Virus record (IMG/VR): IMGVR_UViG_3300031578_000371
Span: 1 to 22,464 of that record
Origin: a virus
DNA: 22,464 bases
Reading direction: 5' to 3' (one strand)
Positions within the stretch are counted from its first letter, which is position 1, and every line of letters starts with the position of its first letter. This document shows positions 2,643 to 21,791 of this stretch, piece by piece. Made by a program: the position numbers and the translations under genes. Below the pieces are notes generated by a model. That model was not told the DNA's origin and ran no database searches. It worked only from the letters and a program-made list of their open reading frames with translations.

Positions 2643-5600
2643 TTACTCCAGATTTAATGTTTCAATATCCTCAATATTAACGTCTTCTGATTCAATAGTA
2701 TTTGGATTAGAATTTATACTCTCACTTTTTTCAAGTAAAGAATCTATTTCTGAAATCATATCCATTGCATTGATATTTAGTTTATTATTGAAACTATCAT
2801 TTTCATTAATAATTTTTTTATGTTTAATTTCATCTTTATGCTTGGATTCTGTACTGCTACCAAAAACTAGTTTTTCAATTTGTTTAATATATTCTTCTTC
2901 AGTTAATACTTTTTTTCCTAGAATACTATCACCAACTACCGGAGGAAGTTCTGCTGGCGTTTGGTTAGGAAGACCGGGTATTGGTGCTGGTATTTCACCG
3001 CCTCCCATAGGTAATTCCCCAGCAGGTGGTAATTCACCTTCAGCACCGCCCATTGGCGGTACACCACCTTGTTCAGTGCCACCACTCAGACCACCTAATG
3101 GCATACCTTCGACTGGTTCACCATATCTTTTATCTATATCGGCAAATAAACCAGATTTTTTAATTGTAACCGGAGAATCTTGAAGTTCTTGCATAATAAC
3201 TTTTTCCATTTTCTGTTGTTTTAGGTCTTCAACGATTTCCCTATCACTCATATTAAATATCTTACGTTTAGCATTTGTATGAGACATTGCGGCAATACCT
3301 GATTCACCACGAGTTAATTCAGTATATGTTTGTGCTTTATCTCGTAATAATTCAGATTTTAATAAATCTTGTTGTGTAGATGGATTAGTTAATGATAATG
3401 TAAAATTCCTTAAGTCATCGCCAGTATAGCCTAATAAATACAAATGAACCATTGCCATTTTATTCAATTCTTGAATCATGGCTTGTTGTACACGATTTAC
3501 TTTTTTAGAAAAACGAATATCGTATTGTGCCATATTCTTACCACCACCTGCAGCATCTTGAAAACTTAAAAATGGTTTAGGAACACCTAATCCTGTGAAT
3601 AGATTATCCCTAAGATACTCTATATCTTGAATTTGGTCAAGGTTACTATTTCTGGTAAAAATCCCAGAACTTAATGCAAATGTGTGATAATCATGCAACT
3701 CCTCTTGACCATCAATAGTAATTGTACCCGTATCTTGTTTTTCAATCAACCATTCAATAGATATTATTTTATGATTATAACAGTGTACTTTATATTTAAA
3801 ATCATTCCAATTAGAATAGCCAAAATATTTTAACATTTTATCAATGTTGCTACGGGTAATTTTGGTCATTTTATTTAATTGCTTATTATTTGAATTTAAA
3901 GAATTAAACTCATTAAGCCATTCCGAATTATTCGTATTTATTTTATTTTCAAGTATTAAATCAATTCTTTCGTATTCGTCATAATAATCAACCAATAAAT
4001 CTAGTAATTTTTCCGAATATTTAATTGATTGTTTCTCAATAATAATTTCTCTTAAATTAGTGTTTTCCCATTGACGTTTAGTTAATTTTGATTGCTTTTC
4101 TCTATTTTCATTTAATGATTTAGTTTTACTTATTGATTTTCCTCTTAATTCAATTATTTTATCTCTATTTGAATTATTATTAAATGTTTCAACTGCTTTT
4201 TTTCTAATTTCTGGCTGTTGTAGATGTGATATAGCATTATATAACTCATCATCGTTTAATTCTGATAAATATTTCTTTCTTGCAACAGATTGTTTTCTTT
4301 TAACGTTTTCCGAAAAATTATTATCATTTTTTAATTTATTATGATATTTTTGTCTACCCAATAATAAATTATTATCTACATTATTTTTAAATTGAATATT
4401 ATTTTCATATAATTCTTTATATTTTAATCCACCGATGATTGATTGTTCACTATGTAATTTAAAGTGTTCTTTCGATGTCATTCTCTTAATATTAGTTGGA
4501 GAATTATTAAATCTATTGAAATCTTCATGATGTCTAATAATTCCACTTTCAATTTCTCCATTAAAATAATTATCTACCATTCGATGAGTATAGACCCAAT
4601 CATTAAAAAAATGGTCATAAATCATTTCATATTTATTGTTAGAATTTTTAATTTCCTTGAATTCTTTATTGAAAGCCCACATTGATTCACCAATAATTAA
4701 ATCTTTCGCTTCTTTAGTCCCATTAAATTTTGTCGGAAATTTATGGTCAGGTGTACATGTTATTGATTCACCATTATCTAGTGTTATTTTAAGAACATTT
4801 GTATTTTTTCTAGTTATACCTGCCCATGTTATCTTTCCCGGTACTATTTTACCATTTTGAGGATTAATTGAATATGACCAAAGTTCCTTACCTGAATTAT
4901 ATTCATCAATTATTTTATTTAATTCAAGACTTCTACCATCAAGAAGTTCAATTTTTGTATCTAAAACCAAACATGCTCCCGGCAATGTATCAATACCTGT
5001 TTGAGTATTTGCATTTCGTACAGGTATGAAATAATCTTCATCATTACCTAGTATATTAAAACGATAGTCAATTTGTCCGTCATTAGGCGCAACTTGTGCA
5101 GTTTTTTTAAACTTAGTTGCGACTTTATAGATGTAATTTTCAACATCATCTTCATCAATATTACCAACATCAATTTTAAAAACCTTTTTTTCTCCAGCAC
5201 GGATAATACGATACGTCAGCATAGCATCTTCAGCCATAACCAGTTGTCTGAAAACCCTACGTACCTTGTTTAAAATTGACGAACCATACGGTAAATATTT
5301 GTCATCACCCAAAAGCCTAAAATGTGCTATTTCAAATACATTAAATTCATCACCAGTCATTCTTTCTTTGAATCGAACAAATGGTTTACCATTTTGTATT
5401 CTTTCAAATCTTTCTATTTCATAATTAACCAGTTGTTTTACATGAGTAATACCTTTTTTTCTTTCACCATATAATAATACAAAATTATCACCGTATTTAA
5501 CAGTGTTTCTTACCCAAAAAGGTAGATTAACGTTAACATTTACTATATCATAAAAAAATTCTTCCAATAAAAATTTAATACGTTCTTTATTGGAGTAAAT

Positions 5601-5993
5601 ATTTAACATCTGACCATTAAAGCCTATAGTTGTGGCTTCTTCCATATATAAATCCAATGCAGCAGAAATAATTGGATAGAACTCCATTCCTTCATAATCG
5701 ATATATGCTGGAAGTCTGGCTGCTTCATATTGAAGTGCTTTTTGAAAACCCCTATCTGTAGTCCTGAAAAATTTATTTTGAAGTTCTCTTTTTTGTTCTA
5801 GTTCTAATCCTTTTAGATGTATTTCTTCAGGAGTATTACCTTTAATGATTATTTTATCTTCTTTACCGGAAGGTGATGTACCGAATGAAGCAGTAGATGA
5901 CATTGGAGTAGTCTCATTAAATCCAAAACCATCAAGATTTAATAATTTATTTAATCTCTGATATATGCTTAATTTATCTTCGTTTTCAGCCAT
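2643..5993 (-). CDS. 20: Portal protein (T4 gp20-like) interrupted by an intein
   Basis: 1116 residues as translated. After removing residues 341-782 (intein) a 674-residue portal remains, against about 520 in T4. The portal forms the dodecameric DNA-packaging ring at the capsid vertex and docks the terminase. Recognition rests on conserved blocks such as YPIISAALDLYMEE, the FRQLVMAEDAMLTYRIIRA region, and SNLDQIQDIEYLRDNL with KPFLSFQ just after the intein. The C-terminus is extended by a Gly/Pro/Glu-rich linker (about 935-1010) and an acidic tail; this extension explains the extra length. Start ATG at 5993 is preceded by late-type motifs. The intein sits in the highly conserved LPGA/SNLDQI segment, as expected for homing into an essential site. 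Confidence 0.92.
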   Translation of the reverse strand: MAENEDKLSIYQRLNKLLNLDGFGFNETTPMSSTASFGTSPSGKEDKIIIKGNTPEEIHLKGLELEQKRELQNKFFRTTDRGFQKALQYEAARLPAYIDYEGMEFYPIISAALDLYMEEATTIGFNGQMLNIYSNKERIKFLLEEFFYDIVNVNVNLPFWVRNTVKYGDNFVLLYGERKKGITHVKQLVNYEIERFERIQNGKPFVRFKERMTGDEFNVFEIAHFRLLGDDKYLPYGSSILNKVRRVFRQLVMAEDAMLTYRIIRAGEKKVFKIDVGNIDEDDVENYIYKVATKFKKTAQVAPNDGQIDYRFNILGNDEDYFIPVRNANTQTGIDTLPGACLVLDTKIELLDGRSLELNKIIDEYNSGKELWSYSINPQNGKIVPGKITWAGITRKNTNVLKITLDNGESITCTPDHKFPTKFNGTKEAKDLIIGESMWAFNKEFKEIKNSNNKYEMIYDHFFNDWVYTHRMVDNYFNGEIESGIIRHHEDFNRFNNSPTNIKRMTSKEHFKLHSEQSIIGGLKYKELYENNIQFKNNVDNNLLLGRQKYHNKLKNDNNFSENVKRKQSVARKKYLSELNDDELYNAISHLQQPEIRKKAVETFNNNSNRDKIIELRGKSISKTKSLNENREKQSKLTKRQWENTNLREIIIEKQSIKYSEKLLDLLVDYYDEYERIDLILENKINTNNSEWLNEFNSLNSNNKQLNKMTKITRSNIDKMLKYFGYSNWNDFKYKVHCYNHKIISIEWLIEKQDTGTITIDGQEELHDYHTFALSSGIFTRNSNLDQIQDIEYLRDNLFTGLGVPKPFLSFQDAAGGGKNMAQYDIRFSKKVNRVQQAMIQELNKMAMVHLYLLGYTGDDLRNFTLSLTNPSTQQDLLKSELLRDKAQTYTELTRGESGIAAMSHTNAKRKIFNMSDREIVEDLKQQKMEKVIMQELQDSPVTIKKSGLFADIDKRYGEPVEGMPLGGLSGGTEQGGVPPMGGAEGELPPAGELPMGGGEIPAPIPGLPNQTPAELPPVVGDSILGKKVLTEEEYIKQIEKLVFGSSTESKHKDEIKHKKIINENDSFNNKLNINAMDMISEIDSLLEKSESINSNPNTIESEDVNIEDIETLNLE
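3648..4973 (-). mobile_element. Intein with HNH homing endonuclease inside the portal gene
   Basis: 442 residues (portal residues 341-782). The N-terminal splice block starts at C341 with CLVLDTKI; the block B motif is TPDH with H417 in a typical NGESITCTPDHKF context. The C-terminal block is HTFALSSGIFTRN followed by Ser783, so the junction is N782/S783. The penultimate residue is Arg781, not the usual His. The central insert carries an HNH nuclease signature: H488-H489, N497, N501, H510, H514. It is followed by Lys-rich repeats of NUMOD-like DNA-binding character (for example KQSKLTKRQWENTNLRE). Splicing would join ...DTLPGA to SNLDQI.... The insert looks even more A/T-rich than the flanking portal coding sequence. 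Confidence 0.9.
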
Positions 5994-20035: not shown

Positions 20036-20190
20036 AGTCATTGCTTAATCATTGTATTAAGTTACGTCTGAAAAAATCAGGAATGATTTTTAAATTTTAT
20101 CGCCAGTCAGTGGTTACGTAAAATTTATTGGACTTAACTAATTAGAAATTAAAGTAATTATTGCACCTATTTAACGTAGGTGCAATTTTT
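20036..20190 (+). ncRNA. Candidate late small RNA, about 150 nt
   Basis: This segment is delimited by a late-type motif (20021-20030) and a strong terminator. The 5' end is estimated as a few bases after the motif. Local pairing is visible: CTTAAT/ATTAAG around CATTGT, CTGA/TCAG around A-rich bases, and AAATTTTA (about 20092-20099) with TAAAATTT (about 20119-20126) enclosing GCCA/TGGT. GTTACG occurs twice. The only ATG frame inside is 12 codons (ATG at about 20083). I do not match it to tmRNA, 6S or any riboswitch I know. Confidence 0.5.
20160..20190 (+). terminator. Intrinsic terminator of the candidate small RNA
   Basis: Perfect 10-bp stem ATTGCACCTA / TAGGTGCAAT with a 7-nt loop, followed by TTTTT. 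Confidence 0.9.
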
Positions 20191-20235: not shown

Positions 20236-20266
20236 TTTGTATTTATAATTTTAAATCGTATATTTG
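20236..20266 (+). promoter_or_regulatory. Bacteroidota-type promoter of the tRNA leader
   Basis: TTTG (20236-20239), 19-nt spacer, TATATTTG (20259-20266): a close match to the Bacteroidota TTTG / TAnnTTTG promoter. Transcription should begin near 20272. A late-like TGTATTTATA (20238-20247) lies within the spacer, so host-type and late transcription may overlap. Confidence 0.75.
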
Positions 20267-20294
20267 CAAAGTGTATTCAAGTTAAATATTAAAA

Positions 20295-20369
20295 ATGATG
20301 AAAAGTTTAATTCATATCCAACCCCAACCGCAACATCAATTTGTTGATGAATGGGATTATTATGCTTAA
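20295..20369 (+). CDS. Leader peptide of the tRNA attenuator (His/Gln/Pro-rich)
   Basis: 24 codons with two adjacent ATGs (20295 and 20298) and stop TAA at 20367-20369. Residues 7-15 are H-I-Q-P-Q-P-Q-H-Q (codons CAT ATC CAA CCC CAA CCG CAA CAT CAA); no other residue in the peptide is His, Gln or Pro. The genes just downstream encode tRNA-Pro(UGG), tRNA-His(GUG) and tRNA-Gln(CUG), with tRNA-Gln(UUG) farther on. The frame sits about 23 nt after the predicted transcription start. It ends within the segment that can act as an antiterminator, as in the his, trp and leu leaders of bacteria. The peptide itself probably has no function; translation of the control codons would set whether the terminator forms. 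This is inferred from sequence only. Confidence 0.75.
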   Translation: MMKSLIHIQPQPQHQFVDEWDYYA

Positions 20370-20411
20370 ACTTAACATCGAAGTTTTTAAAGTTAATCAA
20401 AACCCCATTCA
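20334..20411 (+). promoter_or_regulatory. Attenuator: pause hairpin and antiterminator pairing
   Basis: Region 1:2 is CATCAA (20334-20339), overlapping control codons His14-Gln15, paired with TTGATG (20344-20349). Region 2:3 is TGAATGGGATT (20348-20358) against AACCCCATTCA (20401-20411), 10 of 11 positions paired. Region 3 is the 5' arm of the terminator, so 2:3 and terminator are mutually exclusive, and 1:2 overlaps region 2 by two bases. A ribosome stalled on the His/Gln/Pro codons would block 1:2 and favour 2:3 (readthrough); one reaching the stop at 20367 would cover region 2 and favour termination. Confidence 0.7.
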
Positions 20412-20430
20412 GCAATGAGTGGGGTTTTTT
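20399..20430 (+). terminator. Attenuator terminator before the tRNA genes
   Basis: 12-bp stem AAAACCCCATTC / GAGTGGGGTTTT (one G-T pair) with loop AGCAAT, followed by a T run. The first tRNA begins 5 nt later, at 20435. Confidence 0.9.
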
Positions 20431-20434
20431 ATTT

Positions 20435-20509
20435 CTGGGTGTATTGCAGATGGCTATACTACGGTGACTTGGACTCATCGGTCCGCAGGTTCGAATCCTG
20501 CCACCCAGA
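20435..20509 (+). tRNA. tRNA-Pro (anticodon UGG)
   Basis: Acceptor CTGGGTG/CACCCAG pairs fully; anticodon stem GGTGA/TCATC encloses CTTGGAC (anticodon TGG at 20470-20472); variable loop GGTCC; T arm GCAGG-TTCGAAT-CCTGC; discriminator A, no encoded CCA. The D arm does not form a normal 4-bp stem; GTAT (20441-20444) with ATAC (20456-20459) is the best local pairing and uses the last acceptor base. It is the first gene after the attenuator terminator. Confidence 0.85.
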
Positions 20510-20520
20510 CTAAAATTTAT

Positions 20521-20574: not shown

Positions 20575-20646
20575 GGTGTTTGAAGCATTAAGGTGATGTG
20601 CCAGACTGTGAATCTGGAGAAGACGGCTCGATACCGTCCTTACACC
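20575..20646 (+). tRNA. tRNA-His (anticodon GUG)
   Basis: Anticodon stem CCAGA/TCTGG with loop CTGTGAA gives GTG; D stem GCAT/ATGT; T arm GACGG-CTCGATA-CCGTC. G at position -1 (20575) opposite discriminator C73 (20646) is the His-specific identity pair. The acceptor GTGTTTG/CTTACAC has two adjacent T-T mismatches at pairs 5-68 and 6-67, which is unusual. Confidence 0.8.
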
Positions 20647-20688: not shown

Positions 20689-20761
20689 TGTCTCGTAGTG
20701 TAATTGGTAACACGATTGACTCTGAATCAATAAAGTACTGGTTCGAACCCAGTCGAGACAA
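20689..20761 (+). tRNA. tRNA-Gln (anticodon CUG)
   Basis: Acceptor TGTCTCG/CGAGACA, D arm GTGT/ACAC, anticodon stem ATTGA/TCAAT with loop CTCTGAA (anticodon CTG), T arm ACTGG-TTCGAAC-CCAGT, discriminator A. All stems pair; a normal class-I tRNA reading CAG. Confidence 0.92.
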
Positions 20762-20778
20762 CCAGAATAAATTATTAT

Positions 20779-20861
20779 TGTCCCTTGGTGGAATTGGCTA
20801 AACACGTCAGATTTTGAATCTGATGCCGAAAGGTTTGCAGGTTCGAGTCCTGCAGGGACAA
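20779..20861 (+). tRNA. Class-II Leu-like tRNA with anticodon UUG
   Basis: Acceptor TGTCCCT/AGGGACA, T arm GCAGG-TTCGAGT-CCTGC and anticodon stem TCAGA/TCTGA all pair. The loop TTTTGAA gives anticodon TTG, which decodes Gln CAA. However, the variable arm is 13 nt (GCC-GAAA-GGT hairpin) and the D arm TGGTGGAATTGG...ACACG is leucine-type, so the body is that of tRNA-Leu. One base change (T35 from A) would turn a Leu UAG loop into this one. Charging identity is uncertain: bacterial LeuRS does not read the anticodon, whereas GlnRS does. An automated caller might label it Gln. Confidence 0.8.
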
Positions 20862-20910
20862 CTAGATTTTATTATATTTAATTTTTTTTATTTATCTTTA
20901 CTGAAAAAAA

Positions 20911-21678
20911 ATGTATTATATTATTCAAGAAAATGTATTCAGAGAAGAAAATTATGATAATTTAATATTAGCATTAGATAGATTAGAACTTCAATATGAG
21001 ATAGTCAAAGTCTTACCATTTATTGAAACAATAGAATTTAAAACCAAAAGAAAAAACGTATTTCCATTCGGCTCATTGAAAATGGCTAGGATATCAAAAA
21101 ATTTAAGATGGTATCCGGGTTCTCAAATGAACGACAATCATGATTATCAAGTATATAAGAAATATTATCGTGAAAATCTATTAAACTATGATTCGAAAAT
21201 TTATAAATTTGGTGATAATTTCTTTAATAAAGAAATATTTTTTGCCAGACCAACTTTAGATACTAAGGTATTTACTGGTCAAATTTTTGATATGGAATCA
21301 TGGGAAATTTTCAGAAATAATCTTTTAACCAATGGTCATTCAACAATACTTGATGTAAATACGGAAATTCAAGTTTCTTCTGTTAAAAAAATACAGAAAG
21401 AATTTAGATTTTGGATTGTTAAAGGTAAAATAATTACAGCAAGTCAATATAAATTAGGTGATAGAAGAGTTTTAAGTGATATTGTGGACCAATCCGTATA
21501 TGAATTTTGTCAAAAAATGATTGAATTATTCGAACTTAATGATGCATTTGTTATGGATATTTGCTTAGTAAATGATGAATATAAAATAGTTGAATGTGGA
21601 TGTATTAATTGTGCTGGATTCTATCATGCAAATATGCAATTACTTTTAATTGCATTAGAAAATGCATTTTCCAAATAA
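20911..21678 (+). CDS. ATP-grasp domain protein (R2K clade-like)
   Basis: 255 residues. The C-terminal half has the ATP-grasp pattern of the phage-rich R2K clade: EFRFWIVKGKIITASQYKLG (164-183), VMDICL with D216, and IVECGCINCAGFYHA with E228 and N233 as likely Mg-ATP ligands; FARPTLDTK (111-119) supplies a basic residue set. ATP-grasp enzymes join a carboxylate to an amine or thiol through an acyl-phosphate; R2K members have been proposed to modify peptides, but the substrate here is unknown. It lies 49 nt after the class-II tRNA with no terminator between, and 21 nt before tRNA-Gln(UUG), so it is probably on the same attenuator-controlled transcript. The start is the ATG after a long A run. 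Confidence 0.8.
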   Translation: MYYIIQENVFREENYDNLILALDRLELQYEIVKVLPFIETIEFKTKRKNVFPFGSLKMARISKNLRWYPGSQMNDNHDYQVYKKYYRENLLNYDSKIYKFGDNFFNKEIFFARPTLDTKVFTGQIFDMESWEIFRNNLLTNGHSTILDVNTEIQVSSVKKIQKEFRFWIVKGKIITASQYKLGDRRVLSDIVDQSVYEFCQKMIELFELNDAFVMDICLVNDEYKIVECGCINCAGFYHANMQLLLIALENAFSK

Positions 21679-21699: not shown

Positions 21700-21772
21700 T
21701 GTCCTATAGTGTAATTGGTAACACGTCTGATTTTGGTTCAGAAGAGTCTAAGTTCGAACCTTAGTAGGATAA
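21700..21772 (+). tRNA. tRNA-Gln (anticodon UUG)
   Basis: Acceptor TGTCCTA/TAGGATA (one G-T pair), D arm GTGT/ACAC, anticodon stem TCTGA/TCAGA with loop TTTTGGT (anticodon TTG), T arm CTAAG-TTCGAAC-CTTAG, discriminator A. It resembles the CUG isoacceptor upstream in its D arm and is a normal class-I tRNA reading CAA, the Gln codon used four times in the leader peptide. Confidence 0.92.
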
Positions 21773-21791
21773 CTAACTAAATTTTAAATAT

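Follow-up and report, generated by a model that had tools for sequence, protein, structure and literature searches.

Leaders of the his, trp, leu, thr, and ilv operons combine a short ORF containing control codons with an alternative antiterminator (arms 2:3) and a terminator (arms 3:4), and region 1 masks arm 2 when no ribosome is present. T-box riboswitches, too, sense tRNA charging and regulate genes related to translation through antitermination, but they read the tRNA directly by a specifier codon, without translation. To our knowledge, there is no earlier case of ribosome-mediated attenuation controlling tRNA genes or acting in phages. The purpose of phage tRNA genes, which number up to 67 per genome in huge phages (PMC7162821), has been debated for more than 50 years (PMC10264068), and phage tRNAs replace depleted host tRNAs, a counter-defence against tRNA-cleaving host systems (PMC10264068, PMC11555353, PMC12409363). 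The counter-defence papers concern tRNA function, whereas with an attenuator the depletion itself would induce the supply. The text of PMC10264068 does not mention leaders or attenuation, and PMC7162821 mentions neither of these nor terminators. A preliminary description of the locus analyzed here knew of no phage tRNA array under leader-peptide attenuation; the literature we searched, which did not cover subscription papers or preprints, likewise held no description of such control for phage tRNA arrays or for tRNA genes generally.

The locus lies in a 22,464-nt stretch of viral DNA, hereafter the window (IMG/VR virus record IMGVR_UViG_3300031578_000371). We conclude that positions 20236-20432 very probably form a ribosome-mediated transcription attenuator controlling a phage tRNA operon, a reading for which there are no transcript, readthrough, or ribosome data. 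The locus has the features expected of an attenuator: between promoter and terminator lies a short translatable ORF that contains control codons, these codons match what the controlled operon encodes, the hairpins are mutually exclusive and conserved with compensatory change, and in the modeled geometry a stalled ribosome frees arm 2 whereas one that has reached the stop codon covers it. Unlike biosynthetic-operon leaders, the phage leaders precede tRNA genes rather than genes for biosynthetic enzymes, each contains codons for 1 to 9 amino acids, and several leaders per genome share out nearly all amino acids. No Rfam leader family (His_leader, Trp_leader, Leu_leader, and others) matched at gathering score, Trp_leader reaching 13.7 bits against 41, and no T-box covariance model matched; in contrast to a T-box, the phage leader has an ORF, the translation of which is inferred. 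The proposed mechanism is of a known kind, and what is new is its target, its multi-amino-acid code, and its breadth.

All leader and operon features are on the plus strand. An upstream intrinsic terminator (20160-20186), composed of a hairpin and a T-run, insulates the leader transcription unit. The Bacteroidota-type promoter (20236-20266) consists of TTTG (20236-20239), a 19-nt spacer, and TATATTTG (20259-20266), and the H/Q/P leaders of relatives, described below, also have this element upstream; transcription is expected to start near 20272. The leader ORF of 24 codons (20295-20369, MMKSLIHIQPQPQHQFVDEWDYYA), which has an alternative start at 20298, is kept in relatives as MKNLVNIQPQPQQHPQDGEWGSYT-like ORFs. 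The coordinates of the preliminary description held up, and its observation that His, Gln, and Pro are absent from the peptide outside the control run was also correct, all of these residues falling within H-I-Q-P-Q-P-Q-H-Q (20313-20339). This run is conserved across relatives and also serves as region 1. Arm 2, the 5′ arm of the antiterminator (UGAAUGGGAUU, 20348-20358), pairs with arm 3 (AACCCCAUUCA, 20401-20411), which by folding and alignment is common to antiterminator and terminator and pairs alternatively with arm 4, the 3′ arm of the terminator (UGAGUGGGGUU, 20416-20426). Arms 3:4 and a U-run make up the intrinsic terminator (20399-20432, -17.7 kcal/mol). Folding of the leader was far stronger than that of shuffled sequences (z -6.5; 0/200 shuffles equally good). 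Among the hairpins proposed earlier, the arm 2:3 pairing and the terminator stood; the one at 20334-20349 overlaps arm 2 by merely 2 nt, and the masking structure is actually wider, with control codons 20323-20335 pairing with 20342-20355 and hiding arm 2 in the no-ribosome fold. CCC and CCG made up 60% of Pro control codons versus 24% in window genes. The control codons were just slightly rarer than in phage usage overall, and rare-codon choice is therefore no main feature.

Downstream of the leader, ARAGORN identified tRNA-Pro(UGG) (20435-20510), tRNA-Gln(CUG) (20689-20764), a tRNA with a UUG anticodon and a long variable arm, that is, a class II body (20779-20862), and tRNA-Gln(UUG) (21700-21773). 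It missed tRNA-His(GUG) (20576-20646), which was detected with Rfam RF00005 (41.8 bits) and the anticodon of which was taken from the sequence. The tRNAs listed previously (Pro, His, and Gln(CUG)) are thus all present, but the list was incomplete, since the operon has the two UUG tRNAs in addition. Whether the class II tRNA is charged with Gln or Leu is undecided; operon membership suggests Gln. Its body is Leu-like in parts, it has a clear homologue in L014 (7291-7375), and long-armed UUG tRNAs are found at the equivalent place in L010, L013, and L015. Inside the operon is a gene for an R2K-clade ATP-grasp protein (20911-21678; Pfam PF14243, E 2.3e-17), which is probably co-transcribed with the tRNAs and possibly under co-control by the leader. 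This gene recurs beside tRNA arrays at 53 IMG/VR loci, in large phages of many hosts and also in cultured jumbo phages.

Under the attenuation reading, RNA polymerase would start near 20272 and a ribosome would translate the leader ORF. Scarcity of charged tRNA-His, -Gln, or -Pro would stall the ribosome on the control codons, where it would cover region 1 and leave arm 2 free to pair with arm 3; the terminator would then be blocked and the Pro, His, and Gln tRNA genes transcribed. If these charged tRNAs were plentiful, the ribosome would proceed over arm 2 and arms 3:4 would terminate transcription, and if no ribosome were loaded, region 1 would pair with arm 2 and the terminator would form again. 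Ribosome stalling in vivo and readthrough raised by it are inferred. A full-length leader with several amino acids would allow any single shortage to induce the whole operon, and in relatives with one leader per tRNA operon the predicted outcome is on-demand tRNA supply, separate for each amino-acid group. The closed feedback loop proposed in the preliminary description is a logical consequence of attenuation and has not been shown. The natural cause of shortage is also an inference: host tRNA cleavage in defence and late-infection demand exceeding supply are both possible.

Scanning longer records, we found that the same phages carry three further leader types, namely MKNLLDILMVALVAVLWAADEDRLYSVG before Asp, Glu, Val, Leu, Ala, and Trp tRNAs, MKIFGTYYYGKKSYKKHLTRIGNVMSKKQK before Lys and Tyr tRNAs, and MKTYRHISAIITSTSSRNGISIFCSDFTGRN... 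before Cys, Ile, Ser, Asn, Phe, Gly, Thr, and Arg tRNAs. Each has an arm 2 fitting its terminator (CAGTCGGG, GAATCGGG, and similar). With the H/Q/P type, the four cover 19 amino acids; Met tRNAs also occur in these phages, and several class-2 leaders contain Met. A 372-kb phage (G001) splits the amino acids differently, and its six leaders (Q/F/R/V, L/C, N/H/T, K, S/R/W, and D/G/Y/M/P/A) follow that split. Another phage, G009, has F/E/D/A and C/V/L leaders, and R2K-linked loci have K/F/S/W/H, F/V/L/R, P/Q/Y/T/G, and other leaders, including poly-Q before four Gln tRNAs. Several of G001, G002, G003, and G007 were also observed to have stop-anticodon tRNAs (CUA, UUA) and tmRNA genes within or beside their tRNA operons.

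Matching leaders were also present in published huge phages of 462, 634, and 735 kb, with H/E/V/W/L in LR756500, R/T/V/A/G/P in LR756501 (735 kb), and N/R/L/V/I/T/M, P/D/Q, and Q in LR745206 (634 kb). LR745206 also shows a second leader within one tRNA operon (L248, 24721): MTTTQQIQQQQINQTD lies directly upstream of three Gln tRNAs and within the range of a P/D/Q leader, suggesting nested control. Among cultured phages, Cellulophaga phi4:1 has MKIQRLHLQELEQPIISGGTGV before Pro, Glu, Gln, His, Leu, and Arg tRNAs, VQLTKTGITVIDKTKGARAYLGDTVIG before Ala, Lys, Ile, Gly, Met, Asp, Thr, Val, and Arg tRNAs, and MKTNYCTYNNSNWSFSYDTG... before Tyr, Ser, Asn, Trp, and Phe tRNAs, and the Tunturiibacter phage Tunturi_5 has L/C/Y/S, Q/G/T/P/H/A/F, and W/D/M/K/V/R/E leaders. 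In phi4:1, the hypothetical protein gp075 (L302, 7990-8109) includes a leader peptide; its annotated start is probably too far upstream, and a GTG at about 8027 fits better. When cultured and INPHARED phages were searched by tblastn with class-2 and class-4 peptides, nothing matched. The leaders of cultured phages differ in their amino-acid sets and were therefore found by structure, not by peptide similarity. As judged from these sequences, the putative device recurs in many unrelated tRNA-rich phages, cultured ones included.

The correspondence between leader codons and tRNAs was quantified with a tRNA-blind detector, which required a terminator within 600 nt of a tRNA, an ORF of 15-50 codons, and an arm 2 of at least 7 bp, and took the longest ORF. 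It yielded 75 unique leaders of 19 types. On average, a fraction of 0.457 of the peptide residues was matched by a tRNA of the same operon. Permuted pairings gave 0.236 +/- 0.029, with 0/200,000 reaching the observed value (z 7.6), and reading the same DNA in its other two frames gave 0.235. Four types were not ranked first, three of them being wrongly picked ORFs. In permutations within phages, the true assignment came first in 7/7 phages tested (combined ~10^-7), and 133/137 operon amino acids were present in the leader peptide. Matching codons also lay preferentially upstream of the ribosome-footprint limit (63% versus 27% downstream in 26 leaders; Wilcoxon p = 5.7e-7). The within-phage and 26-leader sets were partly curated with knowledge of the tRNAs; the blind-detector set was not. 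Some leaders carry codons for tRNAs absent from the known part of the operon (e.g., G005), and in a few the simple finder gave weak or interrupted arm 2 pairing (the D/G/Y/M/P/A leader of G001 and the Q leader of LR745206). The preliminary description had asked whether peptide codons covary with tRNA identity, and they do so to a greater extent than expected: about 30 leader types with differing amino-acid sets each fit their own operon. This specificity bears on whether the leader responds not to particular amino acids but to a general failure of translation (through ribosome arrest, host shut-off, or loss of initiation). Any ribosome stalled upstream of arm 2 would antiterminate too, but codon-tRNA specificity and the splitting of amino acids over leaders in each phage would then be pointless, and we regard this alternative as very unlikely.

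Conservation was assessed in relatives reached via neighboring genes (GP88-like and cREC proteins) that have Pro/His/Gln arrays, in each of which an H/Q/P leader precedes the first tRNA. Such a leader is retained ahead of Pro/His/Gln tRNAs in about 25 related phage contigs. A scan of the collection with the first seven codons alone (MKNL[IVM]NI) returned 30 matches, comprising 26 H/Q/P leaders before Pro/His/Gln tRNA operons, one Q/F/R/V leader before Gln, Phe, Arg, and Val tRNAs, and three unrelated sequences. The pattern included no control codon, and the way in which relatives were selected therefore does not account for the conservation of QPQPQ(Q)HP. An exact search with the full control run of the window found no match, and no H/Q/P leader was present in the first relatives, which had been chosen solely through the ATP-grasp gene and which carry other leader types (F/D/A/E in L005). 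As a leader finder, the generic pattern QPQPQHQ returned mostly unrelated proteins, and it recovered L037 and L124/L126, which have compensatory arms.

In an alignment of 22 leaders, arm 2 (GAAUGGGG) and arm 3 (CCCCAUUC) were paired in 97.7% of cells and arms 3 and 4 in 98.6%, the latter with double changes in 6/10 pairs and a covariation score that 0/500 shuffles equaled. Covariation was weaker for the 2:3 helix, which has only one double-changed pair: in L037 and L126, a U-to-C change in arm 2 (GAAUGGGG to GAACGGGG) is accompanied by A-to-G in arm 3 and U-to-C in arm 4. Arm 4 usually has a G-U wobble (GAGUGGGG) at a site where arm 2 matches perfectly. According to the preliminary description, relatives with the same tRNAs but without the short ORF or the alternative pairing would have refuted attenuation; the relatives keep the H/Q/P leader, the pairing, and the terminator. 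The MKNLVNI and EWGxYA segments of the peptide are conserved as well within the H/Q/P class, as they would be if the peptide itself were a functional small protein or a nascent-chain arrest peptide and RNA pairing were secondary. That explanation is hardly credible given two leaders (L037 and L144) in which the stop codon falls before or within arm 2 and the EWG codons are gone; the RNA pairing is therefore kept though the peptide around arm 2 is not. Moreover, across types the peptides have in common only the residues that match their operons.

The 3′ edge of a ribosome lies 13 nt past the first base of the A-site codon, as known from toeprints, and we modeled the leader with this edge. Arms 2:3 could form (8-10 bp) with the A site at every position through the last control codon, retained 5 bp at the next codon, and were lost by about the third codon beyond; the control codons end approximately one ribosome footprint upstream of arm 2. 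Folding with and without a footprint, as suggested in the preliminary description, predicted that arm 2 is freed by a stall and hidden without a ribosome. A few leaders have a stop codon far downstream of arm 2. Equilibrium folding of the full-length RNA always preferred the terminator, and antitermination must therefore be kinetic and co-transcriptional. Antitermination is likewise co-transcriptional in classical attenuators. The direction of control is inferred and has never been measured, which leaves room for positive control, in which efficient leader translation rather than stalling promotes tRNA transcription. This is scarcely tenable, however, as a ribosome at the stop codon would cover arm 2 and free 3:4, predicting termination, and the control codons sit exactly where a stalled ribosome would free arm 2. 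Finally, although CAN and CCN codons all yield H, Q, or P, such that an A/C-rich frame could mimic this class alone, the notion of a low-complexity coincidence beside a terminator that just separates transcription units has a negligible chance of being right, being refuted by the roughly 30 leader types of other composition, the frame control, and the permutations. Conservation in relatives together with the permutation and frame tests therefore excludes chance, and the comparative evidence (conservation, co-variation, and codon-tRNA match) strongly supports the attenuation originally proposed.

Neither the T4 tRNA cluster nor any of 26 tRNA-operon starts sampled in two Flavobacteriaceae genomes showed the arrangement, and a scan of 85,000 species genomes with MKNLxNI gave 31 matches, none of them a tRNA leader. 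Because the bacterial sample is small, use by phages only is a hint and not a result. The examined regions of Flavobacterium immuto, XacN1, and LR756508 had no tRNA genes and that of Brevundimonas Bambus had one, and these are therefore uninformative on leader presence.

It thus appears that large bacterial viruses activate the tRNA genes they carry only when the matching charged tRNAs become scarce. A leader that reads out tRNA shortage would indicate the purpose of these genes, namely restoring supply when specific charged tRNAs drop, and the codon-compensation and anti-defence hypotheses become directly testable through the inducer of each leader. A wider proposal, which we advance tentatively and consider somewhat less than an even bet, is that many tRNA-rich phages, with hosts in at least two bacterial phyla, run a tRNA supply resolved by amino acid, in which the leader of each tRNA operon senses a shortage of precisely the tRNAs encoded there, and that host immunity is the principal trigger, depleting tRNAs through anticodon nucleases, PARIS, retron effectors, Cas13, or other means. 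Were host immunity the main trigger, defence itself would switch on its own antidote. Leader amino-acid sets that track their operons in unrelated phages represent an unusually clear regulatory code evolving with its target, and the leaders may be natural in vivo sensors for charged tRNAs, by amino-acid group.

The window phage itself is T4-like, with Portal_T4 and T4-type terminase genes in the IMG/VR virus record. Its T4-like portal gene (2643-5993, minus strand) is split by an intein-like insert containing HNH (for Pfam Intein_splicing, the match was below cut-off).
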